This document shows positions 9,613-34,987 of a stretch of 41,842 nt of DNA, piece after piece. The stretch spans positions 1 to 41,842 of the forward strand of contig JAEEYU010000026.1 in NCBI GenBank assembly GCA_016288315.1, read 5' to 3'. Every line of letters begins with the position of its first letter. The first letter of the stretch is position 1. The translations under genes were made by a program, and so were the position numbers. This DNA is from Clostridiaceae bacterium (GTDB lineage Bacteria; Bacillota; Clostridia; Oscillospirales; Acutalibacteraceae). The notes below the pieces were generated by a model. It saw nothing but the letters and a program-made list of their open reading frames with translations, had not been told where the DNA came from and searched no databases.

Positions 9613-9631
9613 TGTTGAGTTGCTGTCAACA
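9613..9631. promoter_or_regulatory. Inverted repeat upstream of the sugar isomerase (possible operator)
   Basis: TGTTGA (9613-9618), 7 bases, TCAACA (9626-9631), located 27-45 bases upstream of the isomerase ATG. The second arm overlaps a TTGACA on the minus strand, but no good -10 sits at the right distance. It could be a regulator site; the evidence is symmetry and position only. Confidence 0.3.
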
Positions 9632-9695
9632 GTTTTATTTTATATTATCGGCAGGAATATTGCAACAGCAAATAAGATTGTTTACAAATTATTTA

Positions 9696-9723
9696 TTGTA
9701 TATAAATCATTTTGTGTTATAAT
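9696..9723 (+). promoter_or_regulatory. SigA-type promoter of the CPBP protease-tadA unit
   Basis: TTGTAT (9696-9701), 16-base spacer, TATAAT (9718-9723), 41 bases before the ATG at 9764. Confidence 0.55.
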
Positions 9724-9763
9724 ACACACAATGCAAATAACTGAAAAGAGGAAATCTTTTTTT

Positions 9764-11341: not shown

Positions 11342-12538
11342 TTATCCGATTTTAAACAGCTTTTCAAAAAACGTCGGAATATTGAGAACAAATGCGATTA
11401 TTCTGCCGATAAGGTCGGCGAAGAAATCGTTTTCATCCGTCTGCAGTTCAAAACGGGCGTTGCCGAGTGCAACACTGCCCTCGTAGGTGTAAACATCGTT
11501 TTTGTAGTTCTTTATGTCGTTTTCGTCAAGCTCGAAAATTCTGTAACCGTAGGGTCCGGGCTTTGCGAACTCAGCGCCGTAGGTTATGCCGAGCTCAATG
11601 CCGTCAACCGTGCCCGAAAAGCCGTCAATGTGCGAGTGGCCGAAGAAGGCTCCTATGATGTCGCCGCACTCCTTCCACGCTCTGAACTGCGCCGTCGGCT
11701 CGCAGGGCTCGTAGCCGTAGGATGAATAGCCCTTTGATGTTTCGGGGTTGAGCCTGTAAAAGCCGGTGCCGGCAGCCCTCGCTCCGTTATCAAACGGGGA
11801 GCACTTGACAAATGCGTTGCCGACGTCGTCGGTGTATATGTGCTGGAACAGAAATGCGGGGAGGGGCTTTCCGCCGTTTTCCGCCGTTATCTCAGCGGAT
11901 TTTGTTTTATACCACTCAATCTGGTCGTCGTTTATTCCGCCTCTGCCCGTGTCGGTAAGCCAGATGTTGAACTTCGGCTCGCCGTCGGTGCCGTTGATAA
12001 TCACGTTGTAGTCAAGTCTGCCGTCGGCGTCATCGCTGTCATCCCTGACAATGCAGTGCGGATATTTTGCGTAGATTCTGAGCCAGTCCTCATTTGTTAT
12101 TCCGCACTTGTGGTCGTTGTTGCCCTGTGCGACAACAAAGGGGATTTTGTATTCTTCAAGAACGCCGAAAACGTAATCGACGGCTTTTTCAATATTCTTT
12201 GTTGTTGCCTCAATGTCGGTCTCTCCGTTCTTTTCAACAACAACGCCTTCGCTCAGCGGGTCGTCATCCGTGAAGGAGTCGCCGAAGCGGGAGTCTTCAA
12301 CAAGGTCGCCCGTGTAAACGATTAAATCGGGCTTCGATGTTTCAACCGCAAGGCGCAGGAAGGTTTCAAGGTCCTTCGCCGGGTGTGCGTCGTCCTGGGT
12401 GTCGGTTATGTGGAGAATGCGGAATTTTCCGTTTTGCGAAAATGTCAGCGGCTCTTTTTCATCAGCCGAATATGCGTTGAGAGCAAACGCCGATGAGGCA
12501 ATAACAAGGCACAAAAGCAGTGCGGTTATCTTTTTCAT
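11342..12538 (-). CDS. Secreted calcineurin-like metallophosphoesterase with hydrophobic C-terminal tail
   Basis: 398 residues. The signal peptide is KKITALLLCLVIASSAFA, with likely cleavage near 20-24. Metallophosphoesterase motifs run in order: HITDTQDD near 45, YTGDLVED near 75, QGNNDHK near 140, and GHSHIDGF near 300. These residues bind two metals in purple-acid-phosphatase-like enzymes; the substrate is unknown. The last 28 residues (DLIGRIIAFVLNIPTFFEKL then FKIG) are hydrophobic and amphipathic, unrelated to the catalytic fold, and resemble the tails of other secreted proteins in the window. It starts 36 bases after trkH with AAGGAGAAAA upstream and may be the last gene of the trk operon. 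Confidence 0.87.
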   Translation of the reverse strand: MKKITALLLCLVIASSAFALNAYSADEKEPLTFSQNGKFRILHITDTQDDAHPAKDLETFLRLAVETSKPDLIVYTGDLVEDSRFGDSFTDDDPLSEGVVVEKNGETDIEATTKNIEKAVDYVFGVLEEYKIPFVVAQGNNDHKCGITNEDWLRIYAKYPHCIVRDDSDDADGRLDYNVIINGTDGEPKFNIWLTDTGRGGINDDQIEWYKTKSAEITAENGGKPLPAFLFQHIYTDDVGNAFVKCSPFDNGARAAGTGFYRLNPETSKGYSSYGYEPCEPTAQFRAWKECGDIIGAFFGHSHIDGFSGTVDGIELGITYGAEFAKPGPYGYRIFELDENDIKNYKNDVYTYEGSVALGNARFELQTDENDFFADLIGRIIAFVLNIPTFFEKLFKIG

Positions 12539-21698: not shown

Positions 21699-23696
21699 TC
21701 AGCAGATTCCGCCGAGGAACTCGCCGAGCGTTCCGCCTATGATTGCGTCTATAATTCCCGCGAAGAAGGCAATAAGTCTGTCAAAGAAGGTCTTTTTAAC
21801 CGTAACGTTCATAACTTCGCTCTCTGCAAGAACGCTGCCGTCTTTGCCTATGATTTTTGCCTGAACGGTGTAGTCGTCGGTCGGCTCCTCAACGCCGATA
21901 CCTTCGCCCGCGCCGATATCCTCGTCATTTACAAACCAGTGAATCGCGGCGCCTTTTGGCACGTCAACCGCCGTGGCTCTGTAAATCATGCTGTCCTTGT
22001 AGCCGATTTCGAAATTCTCTTCATAATCGTCAATAACAACAGCGGGCTCATATTCGGTGTAAACGGGCCTGACCGTAATCCCGCCGGGCGTGAGAGTGTA
22101 TTTCTCCCAGTTTGCGTGGCAATCCTCTTTTTCGGGAACTGCGGGGGGAGTAATTGATTTTGTGTTGACCGTGTATGCAATCTCGCCGACGGTCTCTCCG
22201 TTTTCATCAACGAAGGTTGCCGTATATTCAATGGGCGTTGCCGTGTAAACGGCAGTGTAGGTTGCCTCCCGCTCAACGGGAACAACCTCGGGGCTCCACG
22301 CCGAGAATTCGTATGTGAACCAGTCGTCCGCCTCTTTTGTCGGCGCAGTGCATTCGGGCATTTCGCGTTTTGCGTATTCCCTGCTCTGAAGCTCTGTGCC
22401 GTCTTCGTCAACAAAGGCGACGGTTATGTTTGTCGCGTCTTCATAAACGGGAGTGCGGGTGCCGTCCGATTGCGCGCGGACAACTGCGGGTTTGTTTATT
22501 TCAACCTTTTCCATCTGAGCAGGCAAGACCTCGCTCCCTACGCAGCGGCCGGATCCGATACCGTTTGCTCCGCTTTCGGCAACTGCCGTTACCTGCGCAT
22601 TCTCTTTTATAACAATTGTGCCTTTCGGTTCGTCTTCAATCGCGAAACCTCTGCCCAGACCTATTGCCGCACCGCCTTCAGGAGACTGACCCTCTCTTTT
22701 GTCCTTCGTTGCCAGAGCAGTAACCGTTGCATTGCCCCCGATTGTTACGCTGCAGTCAGCATTATCTGCGTCAAAATTAGCAACTTTTGAAGTGCCTCTG
22801 CCCGTGCCTATGCCCGCGCCGCCGGAAGAACCGATTGCCGTGACAACGGCAGTGCCTTCAATGACTATATTGCCTGAGGAGGCGCCGTAGCCGCCGCCTA
22901 TGCCTGCGGCGTGGTTGTTTTGTGCGGGATATGTTGAAGGGTCGGAAATGTCAAAACTGTCAAAACTGAAATCTCCGCCGGTCGCCGAAGTTGCGCGCAC
23001 CGTGCCGCCTGAAATCGTTATATTGCCTCCGTTATAAAATCCGACACCCGCGCCCGTGAAATTGCCCTGATTATCACGAGGCGTGCCGCCGCTTGTGCCG
23101 TAGCCGGAGCCGATGCCTGCGCCACAGCCCGTGCCGTATGCGGTGATGTAACCGTCATAAATATTTATTTCACTCGCGGAGCTGTGGTAGCCAGAGCCGA
23201 TGCCTGCAGCTCTGCTTCCGCCGGTGGCGGTAATTGTGCCGCTGTAAATATTTATTTTGCCCGCTTTGGGGTTGGTTGCGGATGCGCTGTTGAACCCTAT
23301 ACCGCCGATTCCCGCGCTGTATTTGCCGCCAGTAACGGTAAGCGTTGAGCCGTCACGACCGTAAATGTTGACGGTCGAACCCTCTTCAACTTCGATGCCC
23401 GCGCCGACATAATCGGAATTGGCGGAGAGAACGTTGTTACCCTCAAAAACAAGGTTCACGACCGCGCCGCCGCAGATTCTGATTGCTGAGCCGGGCGTTG
23501 AGCCAGTGTTTTCATGCGTTACGCCTGAAATGAGAACGGTTTTGTTTTCATCAATAACAAGCGTGCCATCCCAGTTGCTTTCGGCATTGTAGGTTATTTC
23601 CGGTTCGGGAATGTCAGCCGCTGTTGAAGCCGCAGACATACCGAGCGCAAAAACAAGGGCGAGAACAACCGCCGTAATCTTCCTGATTATTTTCAT
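21699..23696 (-). CDS. Secreted Gly-rich beta-helix-like surface protein with InlB-type repeat, Ig-like domain and hydrophobic tail
   Basis: 665 residues. The signal peptide (KIIRKITAVVLALVFALG core) ends near 25. Residues about 95-385 hold roughly seven imperfect repeats of the form GAGIGSGYG...NIxIxxGxxTA, suggesting a right-handed beta-helix. Residues 424-490 and 490-548 are InlB/Listeria-type repeats (YTATFVDENG, W..YTL). Residues 550-633 look Ig-like. The last 28 residues (FFDRLIAFFAGIIDAIIGG and on) are strongly hydrophobic. The last three parts align by eye with the C-terminus of the LRR protein at 32501. There is no LPXTG or SLH domain. It lies 91 bases after the rhamnosidase on the same strand. 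ACGGAGG precedes the ATG. Adhesion or carbohydrate binding is plausible but unproven. Confidence 0.8.
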   Translation of the reverse strand: MKIIRKITAVVLALVFALGMSAASTAADIPEPEITYNAESNWDGTLVIDENKTVLISGVTHENTGSTPGSAIRICGGAVVNLVFEGNNVLSANSDYVGAGIEVEEGSTVNIYGRDGSTLTVTGGKYSAGIGGIGFNSASATNPKAGKINIYSGTITATGGSRAAGIGSGYHSSASEINIYDGYITAYGTGCGAGIGSGYGTSGGTPRDNQGNFTGAGVGFYNGGNITISGGTVRATSATGGDFSFDSFDISDPSTYPAQNNHAAGIGGGYGASSGNIVIEGTAVVTAIGSSGGAGIGTGRGTSKVANFDADNADCSVTIGGNATVTALATKDKREGQSPEGGAAIGLGRGFAIEDEPKGTIVIKENAQVTAVAESGANGIGSGRCVGSEVLPAQMEKVEINKPAVVRAQSDGTRTPVYEDATNITVAFVDEDGTELQSREYAKREMPECTAPTKEADDWFTYEFSAWSPEVVPVEREATYTAVYTATPIEYTATFVDENGETVGEIAYTVNTKSITPPAVPEKEDCHANWEKYTLTPGGITVRPVYTEYEPAVVIDDYEENFEIGYKDSMIYRATAVDVPKGAAIHWFVNDEDIGAGEGIGVEEPTDDYTVQAKIIGKDGSVLAESEVMNVTVKKTFFDRLIAFFAGIIDAIIGGTLGEFLGGIC

Positions 23697-23787
23697 GATT
23701 CATCCTCCGTATTTCAATTAATCAGCGGATTAAACAACAGATAAATTGTAACATAACAGGTGTGAAATATGCAATAGCGGTTAATAA

Positions 23788-26151
23788 TTATATACACATT
23801 TTTTCGGCTTTGTATTCGCCTGCCGCAAGCGGAATAACCGTTGAGCCGTGAAGGGCGGAATATGTGTTGTCGGCAGTGAAGCGCCAGCCCTTCGGCACAA
23901 CAATAAAGCCCGTCGCCCCGTCGGGGCATTCAACACTGAGGCAGACTGAATTCCCGCTCTTTTTCCACTCAACCGAGATTCTTCCGCAGGGCGCGTCGTA
24001 ATGCGCCTTTGCAAAATCCAGGGCGTCAATAAAATCGGGGGCGATGTCAAAATCATTGCAGCCGTCACCCCTCGGGTTTACTTTTATTCCCGCCACGCGC
24101 TGAATAAACCAGCTGACAATGTCGCCGAAGAAATGGTGGTTGAGCGAGTTGGGCGTGTCGTTCTCCTCTTCGGGCAGAAAGTCTTCGGGCAGGGCGGTTA
24201 AACCGCGCTTTACAAAATTGCCGTAGGAGGGGAATTCCTCTCTCGTAATCATTTTATATGCCAGGTTCCCTTTGCCGAGGTCGGAGAGCACGTGGAACAG
24301 CACCCGCAGACCTATCATACCGCAGGCGATAAAATCATTTTTCTCACGGCACAGCTCAACAAGCCGTCTGCCCGCCTCGGGAATCTCGCTTTTTTCAAAC
24401 ACTCCGTAATAAATGCAGATTGCCTGCGCCGTCTGGCAGCGCGAGCGCACCGACATTGTGCCGGGGTTAATAAAATTTTTGCGGATTGCCTCTTTAAAAG
24501 ATAAGGCGAGGGACTCTGCGAAATCAGCGTGAATTTTCATACCCAGCGCGTCAAAGAGCTTTGCGGATTTGTCGCAGATATACATTGCAATCACGCTGTC
24601 TGTCAGGTAAAGCGGAGCGTCGGGGTCTCCCGCGCCCTTCATCGGCTGAAGCCAGTCGCCCAGACCTATTGCAAGCAGACCGTCTGCCCTTCTTTTCTGC
24701 GAGATGTATGAGAGGTAGCGCAGCATTGAGGGGGCGCACTCCCTCGCGGGCTCAAGGTCGCCCCTCAGGCGGAACATCTGCCAGCAAAGCTCGGTGAGCA
24801 CATTGTCCCAGGCGGGGCCGTTGCCCCAGGCAAAGCCCCAGCCGCCCGTGGGAACTATTCCCGGCAGGGCGCCGTCAATGCGCTGAGCCCTGCAGATGTT
24901 GCGAAGCCACTCTTTATAGCTCTTTTCGGGCGTGAGTGTGAGAACAACTCTCTCGCACGAAACGGCGGCGTCTCCCGTCCAGCCGTTTTTCTCCCTGTGC
25001 GGGCAGTCCGTCGGGAAGTAGTAGAAATTGGCAAGGTCGCTGACCCTGCTCATATCGCGCAGCCTGTTCATAACGGGGTCGCTGCACTCGAAAGAAGCCC
25101 TCTCCTTAAGGTCGGAATTTGCCCTGAGCATAACAAGCGTCTCTTCGTTTACCTGCCCTTCGTCAAGCCCGAAAACAACGGCATAGCGGTAGCCGAAGTA
25201 GGTGAAGGGCGGGGTGAAGGTTTCGCCTTTTTCGCCCTTGCAGATGTAAAGTGCGCTCTGACCGTAGCCGTCGGGATAAAACGAGCCCGTGTTCCTGTAT
25301 GACGGCTCGCCATTTTCCGTTACAAACTCGCAGAGCTGAATATAGATTCTCTGACCTTTTCTGCCGTTGATTTTAAGGCGGAAGATGCCAGCCGTGTTAA
25401 TTCCGAAATCAAAAATATATCCCTTTTCGCCCTTCTGACGGTAATCAAATCTGAACTGTGTGTCAAGCTTCATATTGTCGCGGTTGCCGAAGGCGTTGCT
25501 CAAAACGCCCTGCCTTATTTCAACCGCCTTTATCTCTTCGGTAACAACAACGGGATCCGCTTCGCAAAGTCTGTATTCGCCCCGCGGTTTTTCGGCAGCT
25601 TTCACGTTCTGCCAGGCGCTGTCGTCATAATCATTATTCAGCCAGCCCGGGCTCTCAAGATTTGCGTCATAAAAGCAGCCGCTTCTCAGGTCGTCAAATA
25701 TTATTGCGGAGGGCTTGCACTTAAACGATTCATCTGCGCTGATAACTGTCTCCGCGCCGTCTTTGCCGGTGAGAACAAGCGAAAACGCAAAGCGGGGCGC
25801 GCCGCGGAAACGGGCGATGTCAAAATCCCAGACTCTGCCGCCCATGGAGTTCTGCATACCGTTGCCGAGAATTATACCTACGGTGTTTGCGCCTTTTCTG
25901 AGAATGTCTGTTACATCGTATTCATCAAAATAAACAATGTCGTCGGGGTTGGAGATGTAGGGTGCAAGAAGCCCCTTAGTGATTTTTCTGCCGTTCAAAA
26001 ACAAATCATAAAAGCCGAGACCGCTTATGAGAACTGCGGCTTTTTCAAAATCGCCCGCCTCAAACGTTTTGCGGATAAGCGGTGCGCTCAAGTGCTTTTC
26101 ATAGGTGCAGTATTCATCCGTTGCCTTGAAAAATAACTCGGGAAATTTCAT
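23788..26151 (-). CDS. Alpha-L-rhamnosidase, glycoside hydrolase family 78
   Basis: 787 residues from the ATG at 26151, preceded by AAAGGAG; an in-frame reading up to 26214 lacks a signal. The N-terminal beta-domain has the typical FYDLFLNGRKI and DVTDILRKGANTVGIILGNG motifs near 50 and 95. The (alpha/alpha)6 catalytic domain carries the GH78 hallmark DCPHREKNGWTGDA near 385. A C-terminal beta-sandwich starts near 700. There is no signal peptide, so it is probably cytoplasmic and acts on imported rhamnosides. GH78 enzymes hydrolyse terminal alpha-L-rhamnose from plant glycosides and pectin. No transporter or regulator gene lies nearby. Confidence 0.9.
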   Translation of the reverse strand: MKFPELFFKATDEYCTYEKHLSAPLIRKTFEAGDFEKAAVLISGLGFYDLFLNGRKITKGLLAPYISNPDDIVYFDEYDVTDILRKGANTVGIILGNGMQNSMGGRVWDFDIARFRGAPRFAFSLVLTGKDGAETVISADESFKCKPSAIIFDDLRSGCFYDANLESPGWLNNDYDDSAWQNVKAAEKPRGEYRLCEADPVVVTEEIKAVEIRQGVLSNAFGNRDNMKLDTQFRFDYRQKGEKGYIFDFGINTAGIFRLKINGRKGQRIYIQLCEFVTENGEPSYRNTGSFYPDGYGQSALYICKGEKGETFTPPFTYFGYRYAVVFGLDEGQVNEETLVMLRANSDLKERASFECSDPVMNRLRDMSRVSDLANFYYFPTDCPHREKNGWTGDAAVSCERVVLTLTPEKSYKEWLRNICRAQRIDGALPGIVPTGGWGFAWGNGPAWDNVLTELCWQMFRLRGDLEPARECAPSMLRYLSYISQKRRADGLLAIGLGDWLQPMKGAGDPDAPLYLTDSVIAMYICDKSAKLFDALGMKIHADFAESLALSFKEAIRKNFINPGTMSVRSRCQTAQAICIYYGVFEKSEIPEAGRRLVELCREKNDFIACGMIGLRVLFHVLSDLGKGNLAYKMITREEFPSYGNFVKRGLTALPEDFLPEEENDTPNSLNHHFFGDIVSWFIQRVAGIKVNPRGDGCNDFDIAPDFIDALDFAKAHYDAPCGRISVEWKKSGNSVCLSVECPDGATGFIVVPKGWRFTADNTYSALHGSTVIPLAAGEYKAEKMCI

Positions 26152-26253
26152 TTTAAAACTCCTTTCGGGCTGGTTTTTTTGCATAGATTGATACAACAGA
26201 ATTATAGCACACAAATATAAAAATATTCAATAAAAAATCGACGTTCTCTTTTA

Positions 26254-26282
26254 TTGACAAGAGTGCTTTTCGGGACTATATT
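26254..26282 (+). promoter_or_regulatory. SigA-type promoter of the alkaline phosphatase gene
   Basis: TTGACA (26254-26259), 17-base spacer, TATATT (26277-26282). AAGGAGG (26306-26312) lies 8 bases before the ATG at 26321. No Pho-box repeat was apparent. Confidence 0.7.
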
Positions 26283-26320
26283 TATATATGTAATCTTATT
26301 GAATTAAGGAGGATATGCAG

Positions 26321-27478
26321 ATGAAAAAACTCACATCCGTTATTCTTGTTCTTTTAATGGTTCTCTCGCTCGTGCCCTTCGGTGCGTCGGCGGCGGACTC
26401 ACCCGAAATTCGCAATGTTATTTTTATGATAGGCGACGGTATGGGAACTAATCACCTTGAATGGGCAAAGGCGGAAACCGGCGAAAAACTCGCCATGGAT
26501 GAAATGCCTGTCAAGGGCTTCCGCGTTACCGACTCGCTCACCGGTCTTACAGACTCCGCGGCGGGCGGCACGGCTCTTGCCTGCGGACTTCTTGCCTTCA
26601 ACAGCAATGTAGGCACAATGTCGGTGTCTCTCGACGGTCACGCCTTCGTTGTTCTCAACTATGTAAACCTCTGCGAAGCGTCGCAGAAGGCAGGCAAAAA
26701 GACGGGCGTTGTCACCTCCGACTCAAACACGGGCGCCACACCCGCCACCTTCAGCGCACATGCGGCAAGACGCTCCTATGCGGATATTATCTCCGCCCAG
26801 CAGCTCGAATGCGGGCTTGACCTGCTCTGGACAAGGGCAGACGGAATAATCACAGAGAGCACGGCGACAAAAGCGGGCTGGACCTACATTGACAAATTAA
26901 GCGAAATCTACGACCTGCCCGCAAATTCAAAATCGCTCGCACAGTTCTCCGGCAAAATCGAATATGACGACGGCGATGAAAACGGCGCTCCTTTAAGCGT
27001 GCTCACCTCGCTCGCAATCAGTCAGCTCGACGGCTCCGACAACGGCTTCTTCCTTATGGTTGAGGGCGCGCACATCGACAAATACAGCCACGCAAACGAA
27101 AAAGATGACATGGTAAAGAGTCTTATTGAATTCGACAAGGCGGTCGAAGAGGCGGTTAAATTCGCAAAGATGGATGAAAACACAATGGTTATCGTAACCG
27201 CCGACCACGAAACGGGCGGAATAGTCTATGACAGCGGGGCAAAAGAGTGGAAGTTCACCGTCGGCGACCACACGGCGGCAGACGTTCCGCTCAGAGTTTA
27301 CGGCGACGAAGGAATGTTAAAAGACGGCGAAACGCTCAAAAACGTAGCCGTCGCAAGATACGTTGCAAAAGCAACCGGGCTCAGCGGTATCCCCTCGTTC
27401 TCACTCAATATATTTGTTGTCATCGACTTCTTCAAAGCCCTCGGCGACCTCATCTCCGCCAAACTCAAAGGAGAATAA
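26321..27478 (+). CDS. Secreted alkaline phosphatase with hydrophobic C-terminal tail
   Basis: 385 residues. The ATG at 26321 is preferred over one two codons earlier because AAGGAGG is 8 rather than 2 bases away. The signal peptide is KKLTSVILVLLMVLSLVPFG, with cleavage near ASAA. The alkaline phosphatase core follows: metal ligand MIGDGMG, nucleophile Ser in TDSAAGGTALACG, EGAHIDKYSHAN, TADHETGG and VGDHTAADVPL. It removes phosphate from external monoesters. The last 28 residues (SLNIFVVIDFFKALGDLISA and on) are hydrophobic and resemble the other tails in the window. With the metallophosphoesterase at 11342 it makes two exported phosphatases here. Confidence 0.9.
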   Translation: MKKLTSVILVLLMVLSLVPFGASAADSPEIRNVIFMIGDGMGTNHLEWAKAETGEKLAMDEMPVKGFRVTDSLTGLTDSAAGGTALACGLLAFNSNVGTMSVSLDGHAFVVLNYVNLCEASQKAGKKTGVVTSDSNTGATPATFSAHAARRSYADIISAQQLECGLDLLWTRADGIITESTATKAGWTYIDKLSEIYDLPANSKSLAQFSGKIEYDDGDENGAPLSVLTSLAISQLDGSDNGFFLMVEGAHIDKYSHANEKDDMVKSLIEFDKAVEEAVKFAKMDENTMVIVTADHETGGIVYDSGAKEWKFTVGDHTAADVPLRVYGDEGMLKDGETLKNVAVARYVAKATGLSGIPSFSLNIFVVIDFFKALGDLISAKLKGE

Positions 27479-27559
27479 ACAAACATAAAACGGCAGTAAT
27501 CAAAGATTAATCAGAACCTGAAAACCGTAACCGCAAATCAAAATTTAATCAAAAAACAC

Positions 27560-27583
27560 GGGAGCCGCACGGCTCCCTTTTTT
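27560..27583 (+). terminator. Rho-independent terminator
   Basis: GGGAGCC (27560-27566), loop GCAC, GGCTCCC (27571-27577), then TTTTTT. It marks the boundary before the AT-rich block that follows. Confidence 0.85.
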
Positions 27584-27677
27584 ACTCCTTCTTCAAGGAT
27601 TTTTTTTTAATAATAAAATTCAAAAAATTTTTTAAAATTTTTCAACTTTTTTTCTTTTTATTGCATCTTTACTTATG

Positions 27678-27756
27678 GAGACAAACAGTCTCTGATATAA
27701 AAATAGGGCAGGCAAAGGTATGATCAACCGTTGCGCCGCCTGCCTGTAAAAAAAAG
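27678..27756 (+). promoter_or_regulatory. Putative extended -10 promoter and leader hairpin of the small-gene block
   Basis: GAGAC-AAACA-GTCTC (27678-27692) is an inverted repeat directly upstream of TGATATAAA (27693-27701), which fits an extended -10. A second pair, GGCAGGC (27707-27713) with GCCTGCC (27738-27744), would form a leader hairpin just before the ribosome binding site AAAAGGAGGG. The 27584-27677 stretch is almost pure A/T with no gene. Confidence 0.4.
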
Positions 27757-27769
27757 GAGGGTTCGCTTT

Positions 27770-27949
27770 ATGTCAATAATGATAAACTTCATAACTGATT
27801 ATGTCTCGACTATGATAGAGGGTAGCAAACTGCTTGCTGACCTGCTTTTTTCGGAACAGGCAATTTATCACTTTTTCTATGAAGGCGGTTGGATGGTCTT
27901 TTTAAGAGGCATACTGCGCGGAATACATATAGCACGCTTCGGTTGGTAA
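27770..27949 (+). CDS. Small hypothetical protein, 59 residues
   Basis: The frame starts at ATG 27770 after a strong AAGGAGGG. The sequence begins MSIMINFITDYVSTMIEGSK and contains LLADLLFSEQAIYHFFYEGG; it is hydrophobic and amphipathic but has no clear single membrane span. No family was recognised. It is the first gene of a run of short genes, each with its own good ribosome binding site. The composition is more AT-rich than the flanking housekeeping genes. Confidence 0.6.
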   Translation: MSIMINFITDYVSTMIEGSKLLADLLFSEQAIYHFFYEGGWMVFLRGILRGIHIARFGW

Positions 27950-27988
27950 TAAAGACCGGATAAAAACACTTGTTGAAGGGAGTATTGG

Positions 27989-28147
27989 ATGTTAATTGTT
28001 ATCGGAATTATGTTTGCAATAGGAGCATTTCTTATAGCCGCACAAAACAAGGTTGAAGGCGCAACGGGAAGTAAAGGGCTGGGATGTCTTGTCGTTATTA
28101 TACTGATAATAATTATAGCTGTAATTGCCGAAATTTCGGAAAATTGA
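27989..28147 (+). CDS. Small membrane protein, 52 residues, two hydrophobic segments
   Basis: ATG at 27989 preceded by GAAGGGAG. The frame gives MLIVIGIMFAIGAFLIAAQN, a short loop KVEGATGSKGLG, then CLVVIILIIIIAVIAEISEN. Two membrane helices with a short glycine-rich loop are likely. No family is recognised. It lies 39 bases after the 59-residue gene on the same strand. Confidence 0.6.
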   Translation: MLIVIGIMFAIGAFLIAAQNKVEGATGSKGLGCLVVIILIIIIAVIAEISEN

Positions 28148-28232
28148 AAGTGTTATATTAATATAAGCTGTTTCAATACTCCTTTAAAGCGTTTATGTTT
28201 TTGAATTATTTTATAAAGGAAGGTTTTGAATT

Positions 28233-28715
28233 ATGAAAAAGAAAATATGTATCTTATTATTTACAGCATTGCTGCTTGTTGCTTTTGTAGGTTTGTTTAC
28301 ATCATGCTCGTCAGATGTCTATGAGACATCAGAAACAACAACAGAAGCAACAACGAGCAATAATGACTATAACGACAGTGATGATGATTATAATTATGAT
28401 TATGATTATGACGATGACGATGATGATTATGAATACGGCAACAATTACGGGTCATCGTATACCACAACCAAAAGCTACAACAGTTACAACAATTACAATT
28501 ACAATTATAATAATACTTCGCGCTATACAACAAAAAGCTATAATTACTATAACAGCTATAACTATAACACAACACGATATAAAGCGGATGATACACCTAC
28601 ATATAAGCAGGATGACCCTTATTACCGGGCAAATGACTACAATAATGACGGAAAACTCAGCCAGGATGAGTTCCAAGGTGCAGTAGATGACTGGATGTCG
28701 GCTCACGGTTATTAA
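28233..28715 (+). CDS. Asp/Tyr/Asn-rich lipoprotein with C-terminal EF-hand-like loop
   Basis: 160 residues after AAAGGAAGG. A lipoprotein-like signal (hydrophobic core, then GLFTSCSS) places acylated Cys near residue 25. Residues about 45-70 are almost entirely Asp, Tyr and Asn; residues 70-120 are Tyr/Asn/Ser/Thr repeats. The C-terminus has one canonical calcium-binding EF-hand loop, DYNNDGKLSQDE, followed by FQGAVDDW. A surface-exposed calcium-responsive or cation-binding protein is plausible. The middle is low complexity, so homology cannot be judged there. Confidence 0.72.
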   Translation: MKKKICILLFTALLLVAFVGLFTSCSSDVYETSETTTEATTSNNDYNDSDDDYNYDYDYDDDDDDYEYGNNYGSSYTTTKSYNSYNNYNYNYNNTSRYTTKSYNYYNSYNYNTTRYKADDTPTYKQDDPYYRANDYNNDGKLSQDEFQGAVDDWMSAHGY

Positions 28716-28731
28716 AAGGGGGGACGATTAA

Positions 28732-29118
28732 ATGGCACTTATAACCTGTCCCGATTGCGGAAAACAAGTTTCGAGCAGGGCGGTTGCGTGCCCTGATTGC
28801 GGATGTCCGATAGGTTCACTTCGGGGAGGCATTTTAAGGGTTGAATGCAGATTTTTCGGACTGTTAGGTAACTGCAGAATCACCGTGAATTTTTGCGGAA
28901 AAAGCAGTGTTATCAAAAACGGCTTTTATGATGATTTTCCTGTTCCGTCAGACGGAAAAGAACACACTGCAACAATTTACTGTTCCAAAGGTCTTGATGC
29001 GGCAAATATCCCTGTAAAGATTAAATCCGGCGAGAGCAAAAAGGTTACGGTGTTCTATGATGATTCAAAATTTCTGAATCATTGGAAGTATAAAGAAGAA
29101 ATGTTTATTACAAAATAA
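28732..29118 (+). CDS. Zinc-ribbon domain protein
   Basis: 128 residues. The N-terminal zinc ribbon is TCPDCGKQVSSRAVACPDCG (two CxxC knuckles, residues 6-24). The remaining 100 residues look like a beta-rich domain (ILRVECRFFG, CRITVNFCGK, HTATIYCSKG, KKVTVFYDD). There is no signal peptide or membrane helix, so it is cytoplasmic as read. AAGGGGGG precedes the ATG, 16 bases after the EF-hand lipoprotein. Such ribbon-plus-domain proteins are common in Firmicutes, but their roles are unknown. Confidence 0.75.
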   Translation: MALITCPDCGKQVSSRAVACPDCGCPIGSLRGGILRVECRFFGLLGNCRITVNFCGKSSVIKNGFYDDFPVPSDGKEHTATIYCSKGLDAANIPVKIKSGESKKVTVFYDDSKFLNHWKYKEEMFITK

Positions 29119-29176
29119 CAGGTAAAAATCTGAACGCACAACCAAGCATATATTGTTTAAAAAAGGAGATTTTTTT

Positions 29177-29347
29177 GTGAAAAAGATTGTCGTTTTTATT
29201 ATTATAGCTCTTATTATTGCAGGCATAGCGTCCTGCGGTAATTCGGGAGGTTCCTCATCCTACGATGATGCAATGGCAAGTTATGACTGGGGCGACCATT
29301 ACTATTACAACAGAAGCAGCCACAAGGTTGAAAGAACACTTTGGTAA
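29177..29347 (+). CDS. Small lipoprotein, 56 residues
   Basis: Read from GTG at 29177, because AAAGGAG lies 8 bases upstream; an earlier in-frame ATG (29153) has no signal. The signal is KKIVVFIIIALIIAGIASC, a good lipobox with Cys near 20. The mature part is only about 37 residues (GNSGGSSSYDD, then DWGDHYYYNR). It lies 58 bases after the zinc-ribbon gene. No family was recognised. Confidence 0.6.
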   Translation: MKKIVVFIIIALIIAGIASCGNSGGSSSYDDAMASYDWGDHYYYNRSSHKVERTLW

Positions 29348-29422
29348 CCTCTTGAACCGACCAAAGTTTTTTAATACTCGGACAGCGGTTGTTTATTATC
29401 GACAATAACTTAGGAGAAAAGT

Positions 29423-29941
29423 ATGAATCAAGTAACATTTATCAGAAGAAGCGTTTGCTTTTCAGTTATGATTATAATGATTTTTGTGCTCAGTGGCTGC
29501 TCGCAGACATGTGAAGTTTGCGCAGGCACCGGCACTGTTGCCTGTGATAATTGCTCCGACGGAACAATAACCTGCCCGGAATGTGAAGGAAAAGGGTTTT
29601 TTGATTGTGAAAAATGTGATGGCACGGGAAACATAAAGACCAATGAAGAATGTCCGAAATGTGAAGACAGTAAAAGAAAAGGATATAAATATGATACAGC
29701 TCAGGCGCTTAAAGATTTGTGGTATGGTGTAAAAAGAGACCAGGAAGAGTATTGGTCAAAGTGTTTCCAATGTGACGGAACCGGTTATGTTTTAGAAGAA
29801 TGCCCTGATTGCAAAGGAACAGGGCACGGCTCAGATTGCAAGTCCTGCAATGCCACCGGAAAAATTGCTTGCCCGAAGTGCTCCGGAACAAAAGAAGTAG
29901 TATGCACGGTTTGCGAAGGAGCAGGGAAAGTGAAAAAATAA
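29423..29941 (+). CDS. Lipoprotein with about ten DnaJ-type CxxCxGxG zinc-finger motifs
   Basis: 172 residues. The signal and lipobox are FSVMIIMIFVLSGCSQ, with Cys near 27. The mature part is built of CxxC motifs of the DnaJ central-domain type: CEVCAGTG, CDNCSDG, CPECEGKG, CEKCDGTG, CPKCEDS, a 35-residue spacer, then CFQCDGTG, CPDCKGTG, CKSCNATG, CPKCSGT, CTVCEGAG. DnaJ itself has four and is cytoplasmic; here they are predicted to be outside the cell on a lipid anchor, with no J domain. Roles could include metal binding, thiol chemistry or holding unfolded proteins. AGGAG precedes the ATG. Confidence 0.82.
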   Translation: MNQVTFIRRSVCFSVMIIMIFVLSGCSQTCEVCAGTGTVACDNCSDGTITCPECEGKGFFDCEKCDGTGNIKTNEECPKCEDSKRKGYKYDTAQALKDLWYGVKRDQEEYWSKCFQCDGTGYVLEECPDCKGTGHGSDCKSCNATGKIACPKCSGTKEVVCTVCEGAGKVKK

Positions 29942-30017
29942 TTATCTCGACAAATGACGCAAACATTATTCCTAAAGGATAATCGGATTAATTAATACTG
30001 CAGAAAGGACAGCAAAA

Positions 30018-30122
30018 ATGATAGCTTTTACACTCGGTTTTTTATCTTATCTTAATTTCTTCGCAATGGTGATTTCGGGTCCGCTTACATTCCTTATGGC
30101 TCTTCTCAGCATTGCGCCGTAA
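30018..30122 (+). CDS. Very small hydrophobic protein, 34 residues
   Basis: ATG at 30018 with GAAAGGA upstream. The frame reads MIAFTLGFLSYLNFFAMVIS followed by GPLTFLMALLSIAP: essentially one or two membrane-inserted stretches with no charged residue. It lies 18 bases before the next gene. Similar size and lack of charge occur in small membrane toxins, but there is no antitoxin evidence here. Confidence 0.5.
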   Translation: MIAFTLGFLSYLNFFAMVISGPLTFLMALLSIAP

Positions 30123-30140
30123 AATAATCGGAGGTTAAAA

Positions 30141-30629
30141 ATGAATACAAAAACTTTAAACAAATTTCAGGGAATCTTACTGACTGTTACCGGCATTCTC
30201 TCCGTAATCTTCGGATTTATCTGCAACGGTTCCGGTAATTATTCTTCACATACGTCAGATAAATATACATATGGCGGCGACGCCTACACCGGCATACAGA
30301 ACGCAGCTGCGCAGACCGCAAACAATGTGAGTTATTTTCAAGACTCTTTTAACTCCATAGCCGGACGCGGATTTATGTTTATTCTGCTTATAGCCGGGCT
30401 TGTATTGATTATTACGGGCATTTTTATGATTTTAAAGGCAAAACCGGCAAACACACAGCCGGGCATTGCTTCGCAGGTATATGATACTCCGTCAGCTCCT
30501 GTATATGGCAATACTGCCGGTAAGCAGACCGATAATCAGCCGGCAGTTGAAAGCCTGCCTCAGGACGCTCCTGTGTATAATGAGACTGTTGAAGAGCAGA
30601 CCGAAGCTCAGCCGGAAACGGAACTGTAA
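30141..30629 (+). CDS. Membrane protein with two transmembrane segments, unknown function
   Basis: 162 residues after GGAGG. Membrane helices lie at about 9-30 (FQGILLTVTGILSVIFGFIC) and 75-98 (FMFILLIAGLVLIITGIFMI). A roughly 45-residue Ser/Tyr/Gly/Ala-rich loop lies between them and an 60-residue Pro/Gln/Glu-rich tail after them. With both helices spanning, loop and tail are on opposite sides of the membrane. No family was recognised. Confidence 0.65.
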   Translation: MNTKTLNKFQGILLTVTGILSVIFGFICNGSGNYSSHTSDKYTYGGDAYTGIQNAAAQTANNVSYFQDSFNSIAGRGFMFILLIAGLVLIITGIFMILKAKPANTQPGIASQVYDTPSAPVYGNTAGKQTDNQPAVESLPQDAPVYNETVEEQTEAQPETEL

Positions 30630-30674
30630 GAGCATTTTACATAAAGTCGGTCTTTTAATCACGGAGGTGATTTA

Positions 30675-30812
30675 ATGTTAAACATAGATGAAATAATCCG
30701 CCTCACGCTTGACGCCGAGGCGGAAGTCACCGCTTTGACAAATGAACAGAAAACAGAGATTCTTCTCAGAATTCTGACTTTGTATCTTGAAAGCAGACTG
30801 AATCTGAAATAA
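30675..30812 (+). CDS. Small acidic helical protein, 45 residues
   Basis: ATG at 30675 after an excellent CGGAGGTGAT site. The frame reads MLNIDEIIRLTLDAEAEVTA, LTNEQKTEILLRILTLYLES, RLNLK; a soluble amphipathic helix or coiled coil is likely. It lies immediately upstream of the sigma-factor promoter. It is unrelated by eye to known anti-sigma factors, although its size and position make that worth testing. Confidence 0.5.
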   Translation: MLNIDEIIRLTLDAEAEVTALTNEQKTEILLRILTLYLESRLNLK

Positions 30813-30816
30813 CAGT

Positions 30817-30845
30817 TTGCCAACAAATAATTATTATGATACAAT
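30817..30845 (+). promoter_or_regulatory. SigA-type promoter of the sigma factor-LRR unit
   Basis: TTGCCA (30817-30822), 17-base spacer, TACAAT (30840-30845), 34 bases before the ATG at 30880. No ECF-type AAC...CGT/GTC motif was evident. Confidence 0.55.
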
Positions 30846-30879
30846 ATGTTAAATAAAAACAGCGGTTTACGGGGATTAT

Positions 30880-32460
30880 ATGGGTAATGAACAATATGAC
30901 CTGATACAGGAAGTTGTAAAACTGAGATCAGGCGACGGAAAAGCATTTGAAAAGATATACAATTTAACAAACCGTTCTGCATATTTTACCGCTTTGAAAA
31001 TTGTCGGCAACGAAACAGACGCACAGGATGTCGTTCAGGAAAGCTACATGATTATGATTGACAAAATAGGCGATCTTGAAAATCCTGCCGCGTTTTCAAA
31101 CTGGTTCAGTGTGATTGTCGCTAACAAAGCAAGGGAATTTCTGAGAAAAAACAAAAAGTATGTTTTTACTGATGACATCGATGAGATGAGCGATGAAGAG
31201 GTAAAAGCGTTCAATGATTCTCTTGAAAGTGAAAAAGAAGAGTTCAGACCGGGCACGCTCATTGAACAGCTTGAACTAAAAAGTCAGGTTATGGCGCTGA
31301 TTGACGGTCTCAGCGATGACAAAAGAACGGCAATATTGCTTTATTACTACAACCGTCTTTCCGTTAAAGAAATATCGGAAGCTCTCGGTGTAAATGAAAA
31401 CACCGTCAAAAGCCGTTTGTTTTATGCAAAAAAAGACCTTGCAAAAGGTATTGAAGAAATTGAAAAGAAAAACGGAAAACTGCTCGGCGCGGCACCCGCT
31501 TCTGTTGCTGCCTGGGCGCTGAAAACGGCATCGGCAACGGCGTCAACTGCGTTTGTTTCAGGCGGAGCGGCTGCCGAAACGCTTGCCGCAGTTACCGCAG
31601 GCGCCGCTGCAGCTGGCTCTCTTACATTGACGGCTGCCGCTTCAGGTGCCTCAACGGCGTCAACAGTTGTTACAACAAGTGCGGCTGCCGGTGTTTTGCA
31701 GAAGGTTGCCGTCGGAATAGCGGCAGTGACCGTAATCGGCTCAGCGGCAACCGTTCTTATGAGAGTGCAGAGGCAGAGAATGACTGCCGAACAAACCCAG
31801 AGCGTTTCTCAGATTGAAGAAGCATTAACCGAAGAAAGCACAGCGCCGGTGTTCTTTGTTGAAGAATCCGGAACTTTTGAGGCAGACACCGAAGAACAAA
31901 CAACGCAGATGTCACGCGAAAATTCAACAACATCTGAAACTGCCTCCGCAAGGCAGTCAACGTCAGATAACACTCAGACGGCGTCAGCCGGCACTTCATC
32001 GGAACGCAGAACAACAAGGCAGAGAACCACAAGAGCCAAAGCAACAACAACGACACGCGCTGCAAAAGAAACAACAGCCGCCGCAACATCGGCAACAACA
32101 AAAGCTGCGCAGCAAAGCGAAACGGTCTCACAGAAACCGTCTGAAAGGCAGCAACCTGAAACCGCCGAGAGCAAAACATTCGCAACTTCTGTGTCAACAA
32201 CAAGCCCGCCGACACAGGCGCCGACCGAAGCTGAGAAAAACCCCGCAACGGTAGAAATAAGAATCACAAAAGACGGTGTAAACATAATTGACACACTGAA
32301 AATATCTGTCAAAGCCGGCACGGCATTCACAAAAGAGGATGTCTTAAAGGCAGTCGGCGACAAAGGGTATAACACAGATATGGTGCCGATTGAAGGTCAC
32401 ACGTTGCCTCTTACTGCTGAGGCAGATAAAACATACACCATTGTTGCAAACGTTGAATAA
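30880..32460 (+). CDS. ECF-type sigma-70 factor fused to a membrane segment, Thr-rich linker and C-terminal beta domain
   Basis: 526 residues. Region sigma2 spans about 20-95 (LKIVGNETDAQDVVQESYMI, then FSNWFSVIVANKAREFLRK). Region sigma4 spans about 130-190, with the helix-turn-helix LSVKEISEALGVNENTVKSR. An Ala/Thr-rich hydrophobic stretch runs 203-270, and a probable membrane helix 271-294 (QKVAVGIAAVTVIGSAATVL). Residues 320-455 are Thr/Ser/Ala/Lys-rich, like an extracytoplasmic stalk. Residues 456-526 form a small beta-rich domain (TVEIRITKDGVNIIDTLKIS). No separate anti-sigma gene is recognised. Arg residues right after 294 make topology uncertain. It lies 40 bases before the LRR protein gene and is probably co-transcribed with it. 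The single open frame argues against a chance fusion. Confidence 0.8.
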   Translation: MGNEQYDLIQEVVKLRSGDGKAFEKIYNLTNRSAYFTALKIVGNETDAQDVVQESYMIMIDKIGDLENPAAFSNWFSVIVANKAREFLRKNKKYVFTDDIDEMSDEEVKAFNDSLESEKEEFRPGTLIEQLELKSQVMALIDGLSDDKRTAILLYYYNRLSVKEISEALGVNENTVKSRLFYAKKDLAKGIEEIEKKNGKLLGAAPASVAAWALKTASATASTAFVSGGAAAETLAAVTAGAAAAGSLTLTAAASGASTASTVVTTSAAAGVLQKVAVGIAAVTVIGSAATVLMRVQRQRMTAEQTQSVSQIEEALTEESTAPVFFVEESGTFEADTEEQTTQMSRENSTTSETASARQSTSDNTQTASAGTSSERRTTRQRTTRAKATTTTRAAKETTAAATSATTKAAQQSETVSQKPSERQQPETAESKTFATSVSTTSPPTQAPTEAEKNPATVEIRITKDGVNIIDTLKISVKAGTAFTKEDVLKAVGDKGYNTDMVPIEGHTLPLTAEADKTYTIVANVE

Positions 32461-32500
32461 ACCGGCAGGCAATGTGCTATGCGTTTTTGGAGGTAAGACT

Positions 32501-34987
32501 TTGAAAATCAGTTTCAGAAAAACAGTTTGTGTTTTAGCTGCGTTTGTTATGCTTTTCTGCTCTGCTCCGTTGAATACATCTGCCGACAGCTACGGTGTTT
32601 TTCAATGGACTTATACAGACGACGGAGCGGTAATAAACGGTGTTGACGGGACCGTGAGCGGAATTGTTACGTTTCCGTCTTCAATCGACGGTTACCCCGT
32701 TGTTGGAATAGGCAAGGATGCGTTTAAAAACTGCACTTCTCTGACAGGTGTTGCTTTCCCGGAGAGTCTCAAAAAAATTGAGCAGGGCGCATTTTACGGA
32801 TGCACCGGTCTTACTGAAGTGAATATTCCTTCATGCGTCACTTCAATCGGCAAAGAAGCGTTTGAAAACTGCACAGCTCTGACAGACGTTGCTTTCCCGG
32901 AGAGTCTCAAAACAATTGAGCAGGAAGCGTTTTACGGATGCACAGGTCTTACTGAAGTGAATATTCCTTCATGTGTCACTTCAATCGGACTTGATGCGTT
33001 CGGTTACTGCTCTTCAATAGAGTCATTGACTGTTTCAGAATCCAACACTGTTTTTTACAGCGAAAACAACTGTGTTATAAGCAAAACCGATGCACCTCTC
33101 TGCCCCGAATCAACTGCCGTTTTCCCCGCAAAGACTCTGTTTCTCGGGTGCAAAAACAGCGTTATTCCGGCAGACGGAAAAGTTGAAACAATAGGTCCGT
33201 TTGCTTTTCTCGGCTGTTCCGGACTTACCGAAATAATCATCCCAGAAGGAGTCACCGGTTTTTTCAACTATGATCCCGTGCGTTTCAGCCACGCTTTCAA
33301 GGATTGCACAGGCCTTCGCAATGTAGTTTTTCCCGATTCACTGACAAATCTGGGAGTCAATGCTTTCAGAAACTGCACGTCGCTCACTGAGATTACAATT
33401 CCCGAAAACATGAAGATTATAAAAGGCGGCGCTTTCGCGGATTGCTCAAACCTGGAAACTGTTCATTACTACGCAAAAGATCTGACGTCGGTTTCGGAAG
33501 ATCTATACAGCACCGGCTTCTGGCTGAACGGCTGTTATTCGCTTAAAAAACTGTTTATTGAAAACACAGTAAGAAAAATACCCCCACATCTCTTTACCAA
33601 CTGCGGCAGCGTTCAGGAGATTACAATTTACAACACAGTCGAATCATTAGAATACAGTTCGTTTTCATCCTGCAGCAGTTTTTCAAAACTGTTTTTCAAA
33701 GGCACTCCTGAGGAGTGGATGGAGAATTACAACAGATACTTTTCAAGCAGCGCTTATGTTCGTGAAATCTATTATCAGGGCGGTATATGCACAAAAACAG
33801 ACGCCCCGTCCAATATCAGCATAGAGTTTGAATACGGCACTTTCGGCACGCCAAACGACAGTGAGCTCAACCTGATTGTTGAGAATATTGCGGAATATGA
33901 ACCTAAATTCAGCTCCTTCAAAGCGTATGTAAACGGGGTTCCTGTTGCGCTTTATGAGATTCATATGAAAAATTCCGGCAGTCTTAACATGCAGCCGGTT
34001 GATGAAAAAGAGGTTACGGTGAAAATTCCCGTTCCCGCCAATTTAGATCCCTCGCTTTACAACTCGGTTTTTGTTTTTCACCGCAAACAGGACGGAACAA
34101 CAGAAAGATTGAAGTATATAACCGGCGACCTGGTTATTGAAGACGGCTTCTTTGTCTTTAATGTTGATTCTTTCAGCGACTTTGCCGTTTGCACTGATGA
34201 CAACGGCAACCATATTGATATGGACGGCGACCACATCTGCGATTTGTGCGCGGCGGATCTTTCTTACAAAGTGAAGCTCATTTTTGACGGCGAAAATCTC
34301 GGTGATATTACATATTACTACAATGATAATTATATTGAAAACCTCCCCGATGTGCCTTCAAAAGAGGGCTATACCGGCAAATGGGTTTACTCTGTGCAAG
34401 GCAGTGAACTGAGCATTAAACCGGAGTATACCCCGATTGTTTATTACGCAACATTTATTGCAGACGGAAGACAGATCGACAATAAAATACCGTTTACGGT
34501 TGAAGATAAATCACTTAATGAACCCGCAGTGCCGCAAAAAGAGGGCTATACCGGCAAATGGAATGACTACACCTTAGGTGCGGGCGACATAACCGTAACA
34601 GCGCATTATACAAAAACAGTGAATCCGGCAGCAAAAGCGACAATAAATGTTGCTGGCACAGCCCGTTTCAGCTTCGGAACAAAACTCATAATCAAGGCAA
34701 CAGCCGACAATCTTGAGCCCGGATACCGGCTTGTAATGGCTATAAATGAAAAAGAGGTTACGGGCAACAACAAAGAAGTTGTTTGCGAATACGGTGAACT
34801 TAAAAGCGATGTTGACTATTATGTTAAAATCGTTGATGCAAACGGAAATGCTTTAAAAGACACCGACGGAAAAGTAATCAGAAAAGACGGCGGAACAATC
34901 ACCTGCAAAGCGGGTTTTATACAAAGATTATTTGCCGTCTTGCTGAGATTGCTGGGAATACTTCCCGAAAAAACCGTTAAACCGTAA
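32501..34987 (+). CDS. BspA-like leucine-rich-repeat surface protein (LRR_5) with shared C-terminal module
   Basis: 828 residues from TTG 32501, chosen because TGGAGG lies 7 bases upstream and a signal peptide follows at once (VCVLAAFVMLFCSAPLNTSA); the open frame extends upstream to 32390 over the sigma-factor end. LRR_5 repeats fill about residues 60-420 (pattern AFxxCTxLTxVxxPxSLKxI). A beta-domain follows, then a Cys/His/Asp motif (HIDMDGDHICDLC) near 570. Two InlB-type repeats (590-700), an Ig-like domain (about 713-800) and a hydrophobic tail (FIQRLFAVLLRLLGIL) complete it. Residues about 85-165 contain a near-perfect tandem duplication. BspA-type proteins are often adhesins; function here is inferred from family only. 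Confidence 0.85.
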   Translation: MKISFRKTVCVLAAFVMLFCSAPLNTSADSYGVFQWTYTDDGAVINGVDGTVSGIVTFPSSIDGYPVVGIGKDAFKNCTSLTGVAFPESLKKIEQGAFYGCTGLTEVNIPSCVTSIGKEAFENCTALTDVAFPESLKTIEQEAFYGCTGLTEVNIPSCVTSIGLDAFGYCSSIESLTVSESNTVFYSENNCVISKTDAPLCPESTAVFPAKTLFLGCKNSVIPADGKVETIGPFAFLGCSGLTEIIIPEGVTGFFNYDPVRFSHAFKDCTGLRNVVFPDSLTNLGVNAFRNCTSLTEITIPENMKIIKGGAFADCSNLETVHYYAKDLTSVSEDLYSTGFWLNGCYSLKKLFIENTVRKIPPHLFTNCGSVQEITIYNTVESLEYSSFSSCSSFSKLFFKGTPEEWMENYNRYFSSSAYVREIYYQGGICTKTDAPSNISIEFEYGTFGTPNDSELNLIVENIAEYEPKFSSFKAYVNGVPVALYEIHMKNSGSLNMQPVDEKEVTVKIPVPANLDPSLYNSVFVFHRKQDGTTERLKYITGDLVIEDGFFVFNVDSFSDFAVCTDDNGNHIDMDGDHICDLCAADLSYKVKLIFDGENLGDITYYYNDNYIENLPDVPSKEGYTGKWVYSVQGSELSIKPEYTPIVYYATFIADGRQIDNKIPFTVEDKSLNEPAVPQKEGYTGKWNDYTLGAGDITVTAHYTKTVNPAAKATINVAGTARFSFGTKLIIKATADNLEPGYRLVMAINEKEVTGNNKEVVCEYGELKSDVDYYVKIVDANGNALKDTDGKVIRKDGGTITCKAGFIQRLFAVLLRLLGILPEKTVKP
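32753..33000 (+). repeat. Tandem 138-bp duplication inside the LRR gene
   Basis: The segment beginning GCTTTCCCGGAGAGTCTCAA at 32753 recurs at 32891, exactly 138 bases (46 codons, two LRR_5 units) later, with only a few substitutions up to about 32987. This high nucleotide identity points to recent duplication. Confidence 0.8.

Follow-up and report, generated by a model that had tools for sequence, protein, structure and literature searches.

The contig analyzed here (C37, 41,842 nucleotides, hereafter the window) belongs to the genome of a Clostridiaceae bacterium, 2.15 Mb in 74 contigs and 77.7% complete, and encodes five predicted exported proteins that end in a short hydrophobic or amphipathic tail. 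We propose, with a probability of a little under 0.6, that these amphipathic C-terminal ends attach the proteins to the membrane in the manner of DacA/PBP5, an arrangement used throughout the lineage, the membrane binding itself being what we infer. The proteins would be exported through the Sec pathway and their signal peptide then cut off; the last 15-30 residues may fold as an amphipathic helix that, lying within the outer membrane leaflet of the cell, would keep the protein at the surface. An Ig-like domain followed by the helix GFFxKIIAFFxxLFG forms a prefabricated C-terminal module on leucine-rich repeat (LRR), InlB-repeat, CUB, DUF6273 and cohesin proteins, and further exported enzymes end in tails that are unrelated in sequence yet likewise amphipathic. 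An earlier note on this DNA had suggested a surface-retention or export signal outside the classical anchors. Retention by an anchor of an unlisted type is supported by the enrichment of tails in this lineage, by a swap, among alkaline phosphatases, between the tail and lipobox or uncleaved N-termini, by the likeness to the DacA end of Escherichia coli, and by a tail that stands on a cohesin protein and not on two dockerin open reading frames (ORFs) of the same genome. An export signal is unnecessary, since the proteins already carry Sec-type signal peptides.

Genes were called with a simple codon-usage script and signal peptides with rules of our own (three were tried) rather than a trained predictor; the signal-peptide, cleavable, uncleaved and lipobox classes are thus predictions from sequence throughout. 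Several tail rules were also tried. A set of 73 loci from relatives (the named loci) was gathered by a tail pattern search; their titles read Clostridia, Clostridiales, Clostridiaceae, Ruminococcaceae or Oscillospiraceae bacterium, and their hosts, where stated, are goat, sheep, reindeer, water buffalo, yak, roe deer and horse, so that these relatives are mostly gut bacteria of hoofed animals. Because these loci were found by the tail pattern, conservation across them is biased, unlike that in a 37-row alignment (A2), which is free of such selection.

The five ORFs and the tails quoted for them were found again in the translations, and a strict signal-peptide rule picks exactly these five among the window proteins, which we designate by their first coordinate. 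An amphipathic tail ends 5/5 signal-peptide proteins versus 1/9 cytoplasmic proteins of the window (p = 0.003). The differing folds that had been claimed are confirmed by Pfam, which recognizes a phosphoesterase, an alkaline phosphatase, a BspA-type LRR protein and beta-helix repeats, and no known fold in the fifth. The classical anchors are likewise absent, with no LPxTG by pattern and no SLH or dockerin domain by Pfam; a pattern search for NPxT[NDG] gave 0/5, and the NCBIfam models, CTERM ones included, matched nothing on the five tails at E values up to 0.1. The idea of a shared tail holds by homology for 21699 and 32501 only. Their alignment, first made by eye, is borne out by BLASTP (58.9 bits, E = 5e-13, 30% over 177 columns) and runs from the InlB-like repeat through the Ig-like domain to the helix; for the repeat, Pfam Flg_new gives a marginal E value of 0.0095 in 32501 and no match in 21699. 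A tail profile built from 37 modules gives these two proteins, both among its members, scores of 28 and 20, whereas 11342, 26321 and 6399 score 4, -5 and -11. These low scores indicate that what the other three share with the pair is a physical character, amphipathicity, and not a sequence; a single homologous module in all five was therefore rejected.

The earlier note had expected such tails to be more frequent on secreted than on cytoplasmic proteins of related genomes. Within the genus they are: in stretches taken from six of its genomes, 26/54 signal-peptide proteins that lack the module have an amphipathic tail versus 39/373 cytoplasmic ones (p = 4e-10), and 13/27 versus 21/244 when the window's genome is removed. 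The excess does not extend to seven module-free genomes of the family (4/25 versus 37/351, p = 0.28, not significant), and genus and family differ in this respect (p = 0.005). Two genomes of other families gave 1/3 versus 16/147, and G126, a genome of another genus that has the module and was counted separately, 5/10 versus 6/38. Looser rules pointed the same way in the window's genome, with 14/42 versus 0/119 (at least 9 of 15 residues among FWILVM), 17/35 versus 2/125 (a hydrophobic 15-mer) and 6/35 versus 0/125 (tail profile at 12). One of these rules, applied elsewhere, gave 3/23 versus 11/305 in five module-free genomes, 5/15 versus 1/33 in G054 and 2/7 versus 0/36 in G021. The 26 module-free tails are more amphipathic than their composition alone would give: against their own shuffles the mean z is 1.20 (p = 1.8e-4), and their moment averages 0.29.

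Alkaline phosphatases, to which 26321 belongs, were searched in 24 and 120 genomes, its own included. From 43 loci examined, 37 full-length ORFs were kept; those dropped for want of one were G027, the second G007 copy, G012, G009 (whose cut piece has a tail at its end too), G144 and G102, and the short matches L297 and L311, repeat loci and uncut second copies (as in G042, G115 and G119) stand outside the count. As assigned by us from the alignment, 13 of the 37 carry a tail, which reaches 24 to 53 residues past the last conserved column; they are ten enzymes of the genus and those of G126, G082 and G099. The C-terminal extension of 26321 is missing in most homologues examined from other genera, and the tail-less enzymes of G127, G091 and G100 bear long unrelated extensions, that of G100 ending, by eye, in a transmembrane (TM) helix. 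A cleavable signal peptide was called for 10/13 tailed versus 3/24 tail-less phosphatases (p = 1.7e-4); among the other tail-less ones, 8 have a lipobox, 10 lack a cleavage site and 3 received no call. In G014, of the same genus, the phosphatase copy is both tail-less and uncleaved.

The comparison with DacA rests on a protein whose anchor is known. In the sections of PMC2909392 drawn on here, the last 18 residues of PBP5 are a membrane-binding amphipathic helix, and the protein deprived of them is soluble and mislocalised. The tail profile gives the E. coli DacA end, NFFGKIIDYIKLMFHHWFG, a score of 6.2. A score of at least 3 is found in 0/536 cytoplasmic tails when the named loci are left out; with them included, 6/702 reach 6.1, five of which are plainly module tails by eye. 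The same 6.1 is reached by 1/3216 internal blocks, and the level of E. coli DacA by 2/846 hydrophobic blocks of membrane proteins and by 25/5000 shuffles of its own last 25 residues; the comparison with shuffles and membrane-protein blocks covers E. coli DacA and the tails of four relatives. DacA/PBP5 has a beta-rich domain before its C-terminal helix. No homology between the module and this domain was found, with an hhalign probability of 5.6% and the helices alone aligned; PBP5_C gave no Pfam match on the module.

An alignment of six C-termini from the window's genome (A1) retrieved 19 module matches in that genome, the weakest being short or low-scoring. The module is present in 24/25 same-genus genomes and in 0/15 from other families (40 searched, own included). 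A scan of 120 genomes of the family, own included, found it in seven, namely its own, G054 of the same genus, which with 37 matches has the highest count per genome, and five of other genera, among which G095 and G118 have one weak match each. At the level of the order, 10 of 295 genomes match, strongly only in the window's own and in G057; the remaining eight matches are weak and stop short of the tail. In the window and the 73 named loci, each of 88 frames has exactly one module, and 87 of these modules end no more than 15 residues before the stop codon. Four of the six nearly invariant columns of A2 lie in the helix (F99, F106, F107 and L110), which holds 2.86 bits per column versus 1.74 in the Ig part, in a set gathered with the whole module. 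No Pfam model has its best stretch on the module in the window proteins and 20 module ORFs, nor does an NCBIfam model match it in the window proteins. The Ig-like models (Big_2, Big_3 and others) do not match over it in the scanned proteins; in L020 and L073, the best stretches of Big_2 and Big_3, respectively, precede it. The matches of a fold search against the PDB were weak and for the most part generic to Ig domains, all of them short of E 0.001. Beside a module gene, on the opposite strand, lies also an isolated tail fragment, GFFDKLIAFFKALFGLLPTVKIKP (G000:C56:12019-12111).

The proteins that carry the module are diverse. Pfam was run on 20 of 70 closed module ORFs and found, with overlaps, LRR_5, Flg_new and DUF6273 in 7 each, cohesin in 2, CUB in 1 and nothing in 2. 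DUF6273, standing on 7 of these 20 (L070-L142), thus probably serves as a surface domain in the lineage. A lenient N-terminal rule called 42 of the 70 cleavable.

Cohesins deserve separate mention. In the window's genome, the ORF L020:6467-8041 (Cohesin, Big_2 and the module with its tail) starts 31 bases after L020:1549-6435, which has Dockerin_1, a weak cohesin match and no tail; the other dockerin ORF of this genome, L342:166-4773, has no tail either. In L070, a cohesin-module protein lies behind a large InlB-repeat protein whose end is dockerin-like by eye, with no Pfam match. Cohesin and module are joined also in L048 and in two genes of L140, and L073, cut at its start, combines three cohesins, two dockerins, ten Big_3 and the module. 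No rate of such fusions can be given, because all except those of the window's own genome were fetched for carrying the module. Among the 40 genomes, cohesin matches occur in 16 and dockerin matches in 33. A tailed cohesin protein would tether its dockerin partners to the membrane.

Several observations weigh against a DacA-like anchor. An AlphaFold2 model of the 32501 module (70 rows; mean predicted local distance difference test, pLDDT, 94.3) shows a beta domain, a helix at 105-117 and, behind it, a confident strand at 122-125, an arrangement in which the helix might be packed against the Ig domain of the same protein. Conservation of the helix barely exceeds that of the Ig part in the six-row A1 (2.69 versus 2.27 bits). 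Module tails are not clearly above their shuffles (z 0.82, p = 0.055, n = 7), and cytoplasmic ends (0.18) and TM segments (0.30) are slightly, yet significantly, above theirs. The tail profile reaches 6 in only 5/54 module-free tails, and a loose tail rule also flags 3/9 lipoproteins, although these are few cases. As to the N-termini, 28 of the 70 module ORFs were not called cleavable (16 uncleaved, 6 lipobox-like, 6 without a call), and three of the 13 tailed phosphatases (G004, G001, G015) are lipobox-like by rule, a later cleavage site being also present by eye. On the phosphatase tree the tail requires two changes, and the association with signal peptides therefore reflects about two events, not 37. 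L073 indicates that dockerin and tail are not mutually exclusive. Finally, among the 28 S11 proteins of relatives shown, 24 score below zero and 4 above zero, 2 of these 4 reaching at least 6 (L229, from the genus, with 9.8 and L226, from another family, with 9.0); L229 is the only same-genus match among them, and another seven same-genus S11 proteins (L234, L236-L241), that of the window's own genome included, end in a plain TM helix with a basic end. The strand behind the helix, together with the strong conservation, equally suits a folded element or a recognized signal, and this is a main doubt, as is the weak fit to the profile of the DacA tails that most relatives have.

The alternative that best survives, though we consider it unlikely, is that the module tail is a sorting signal for a dedicated enzyme or transporter, CTERM-like, with cutting or attachment after recognition. 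The conservation of the helix and its recurring ends, LPxVEIKP and NRTVVQ, seem to exceed what a passive anchor needs, and as many as 37 matches per genome would suit such a system. However, neither a CTERM nor any other NCBIfam model matches the tails of the five proteins, the motif is missing from the other three window tails, and by eye most module ends have no basic cluster after the helix. The earlier note had suggested a linked processing enzyme, and none was found; sortase, the sole family profiled, is unlinked, being present in 37/40 genomes whether the module is present or not, and no search for other candidates was made. A link between module and sortase was thus discarded. A separate, classical sortase system is present in the same genome, on contig C23, where L235:1643-3877 has LPQTG, a TM helix and a basic end and is flanked by two sortases.

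Only slightly less credible is the view that the helix and the following strand are part of the Ig-like fold, or a dimer interface, and have no membrane role. The confident model described above, with its helix and strand, speaks for this view. Yet the helix motif also ends proteins free of the Ig module (L018:9588-10592 (22), L019:4263-5717 (19) and, in G126, L184:7822 (19)), the tail profile picks the anchor of E. coli DacA as well, and the tails of phosphatases track the type of signal peptide. It is far less probable that the tails are ordinary C-terminal TM anchors that look amphipathic by chance. TM-like tails are themselves commoner on signal-peptide proteins of the six genomes (7/54 versus 3/373 cytoplasmic, p = 3e-5), and these 7 have an uncharged TM-like end, some with a basic end (L012:2752, L026:2841); but the 26/54 amphipathic tails lack such an uncharged segment by rule, and TM segments have a mean moment of 0.15 against 0.29 for module-free tails, a z of 0.30, and greater hydrophobicity (mean H 0.74 against 0.52). 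That the tails are functionless, hydrophobic ends tolerated by composition or produced by gene-calling error, can practically be set aside: about one in ten cytoplasmic proteins does have an amphipathic end (the 39/373 above), but the tails are conserved across paralogues and genomes, adjoin the stop codon and are enriched on exported proteins of this lineage.

Altogether, the data speak most for a passive anchor of the DacA type at the outer membrane face. More tentatively, and with less confidence than we give to the anchor itself, the module might provide one lineage of gut Clostridia with a general means of surface display of its own. Present in many copies, it would set as many as a few dozen exported proteins per genome, including cohesin scaffoldins, on the membrane and not on the wall, and a dedicated factor might recognize the conserved helix and the LPxVEIKP end. 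Retention in Gram-positive gut bacteria is usually read from lipoboxes, LPxTG, SLH, dockerins and TM helices, and tailed proteins would be filed as free secreted ones. If the tail is an anchor, a large share of the predicted secretome of this lineage would be cell-bound and its cohesin proteins would represent a new kind of anchoring scaffoldin. With the tail profile this can be tested in other genomes, and the tail could become a small display tag.

Table 1. The five tailed proteins of the window, with their modules, repeats and tails.
Feature	Position	Strand	Basis
Beta-helix protein with signal peptide, InlB-like repeat, Ig-like domain and tail	21699..23696	-	Pfam Beta_helix_3, E 3.8e-6; signal-peptide rule
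InlB-type repeat, residues 487-550, homologous to that of 32501	22047..22238	-	BLASTP; no Flg_new match
Ig-like + tail module	21702..22070	-	hmmsearch with module profile; genome search E 2.1e-38, seed in profile
Tail TFFDRLIAFFAGIIDAIIGGTLGEFLGGIC	21702..21791	-	Translation; tail profile score 28
BspA-type LRR protein with signal peptide, InlB-like repeat, Ig-like domain and tail	32501..34987	+	Pfam LRR_5, E 2e-67; signal-peptide rule
InlB-type repeat, residues 644-705	34430..34615	+	BLASTP; Flg_new E 0.0095, under cut-off
Ig-like + tail module of 32501	34604..34984	+	Module profile; AlphaFold2 mean pLDDT 94.3
Tail GFIQRLFAVLLRLLGILPEKTVKP	34913..34984	+	Translation; tail profile score 20
Calcineurin-like phosphoesterase with signal peptide and amphipathic tail, without module	11342..12538	-	Pfam Metallophos, E 2.1e-7
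Tail DFFADLIGRIIAFVLNIPTFFEKLFKIG	11345..11428	-	Translation; maximum hydrophobic moment 0.54
Alkaline phosphatase with signal peptide and C-terminal extension	26321..27478	+	Pfam Alk_phosphatase, E 7.8e-44
Tail SFSLNIFVVIDFFKALGDLISAKLKGE	27395..27475	+	Translation; comparison with phosphatase homologues
Exported protein with amphipathic tail, no known domain	6399..7340	+	No Pfam or NCBIfam match
Tail DITGIVKSIIKSIMSKIGG	7281..7337	+	Translation; maximum moment 0.45

Other genes of the window were noted in passing. Directly upstream of 32501, 30880-32460 encodes extracytoplasmic function (ECF) sigma factor domains joined to a Thr/Ser-rich C-terminal part, which a hydrophobic stretch, seen by eye, precedes. 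A short protein at 29423-29941 has a lipobox-like N-terminus by eye and DnaJ-type CxxCxGxG repeats that fall just short of the Pfam cut-off; the product of 28233-28715 is lipoprotein-like and Asp/Tyr/Asn-rich, ends in NDYNNDGKLSQDEF plus a short remainder and has no Pfam match; 9620-10828 encodes a CAAX-protease-like (Rce1-like) membrane protein. The proteins L016:4489-5367, L023:3965-4849 and L009:3634-4308 have F-rich hydrophobic starts, such as MLNRIYAFIMAIIAFFSSLFG, with no clear cleavage site, which resemble N-terminal counterparts of the tails.

A parallel can be drawn with several known systems. Like anchoring scaffoldins, the tailed cohesin proteins combine cohesin with a putative surface anchor at the C-terminus, with a dockerin protein next door in the window's own genome. 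The anchors of known scaffoldins, as far as the surveyed part of PMC11557425 goes, are different, namely SLH, LPxTG, LysM, a C-terminal TM helix and Cu-amine-oxidase-like domains, and the word "amphipathic" is absent from the main text of that survey. In a review on surface display in monoderms (PMC5817068), a word search shows that "amphipathic", "amphiphilic" and "monotopic" do not occur either; by these checks, neither survey lists the anchor type described here. A literature search over titles and the starts of abstracts, with most subscription journals outside it, returned no description of such tails.

With the sortase/LPxTG system the tails share C-terminal retention of exported proteins. 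They differ in that the five proteins have no LPxTG, that the helix stands at the very end, and that the presence of sortase is unlinked to the module. A resemblance in organization is found with PEP-CTERM, GlyGly-CTERM and similar signals, which, in what we drew from their descriptions, also place a short homologous tail, in many copies, on otherwise unrelated exported proteins. CTERM tails are laid out as a motif, a TM segment and a basic end. Here the helix is amphipathic, no NCBIfam model matches and no partner enzyme was found, with sortase alone profiled. As for DacA/PBP5, the anchor studied here stands on unrelated proteins and in many copies, no Peptidase_S11 domain being seen by Pfam in the five window proteins or in the 20 scanned of the 70 module ORFs; no homology of the module to the C-terminal domain of DacA was found, and the DacA of most relatives is off the profile. 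The likeness lies in the order of the parts, a signal peptide first, a beta-rich domain after it and an amphipathic helix at the C-terminus, and in the E. coli tail, which matches the profile.

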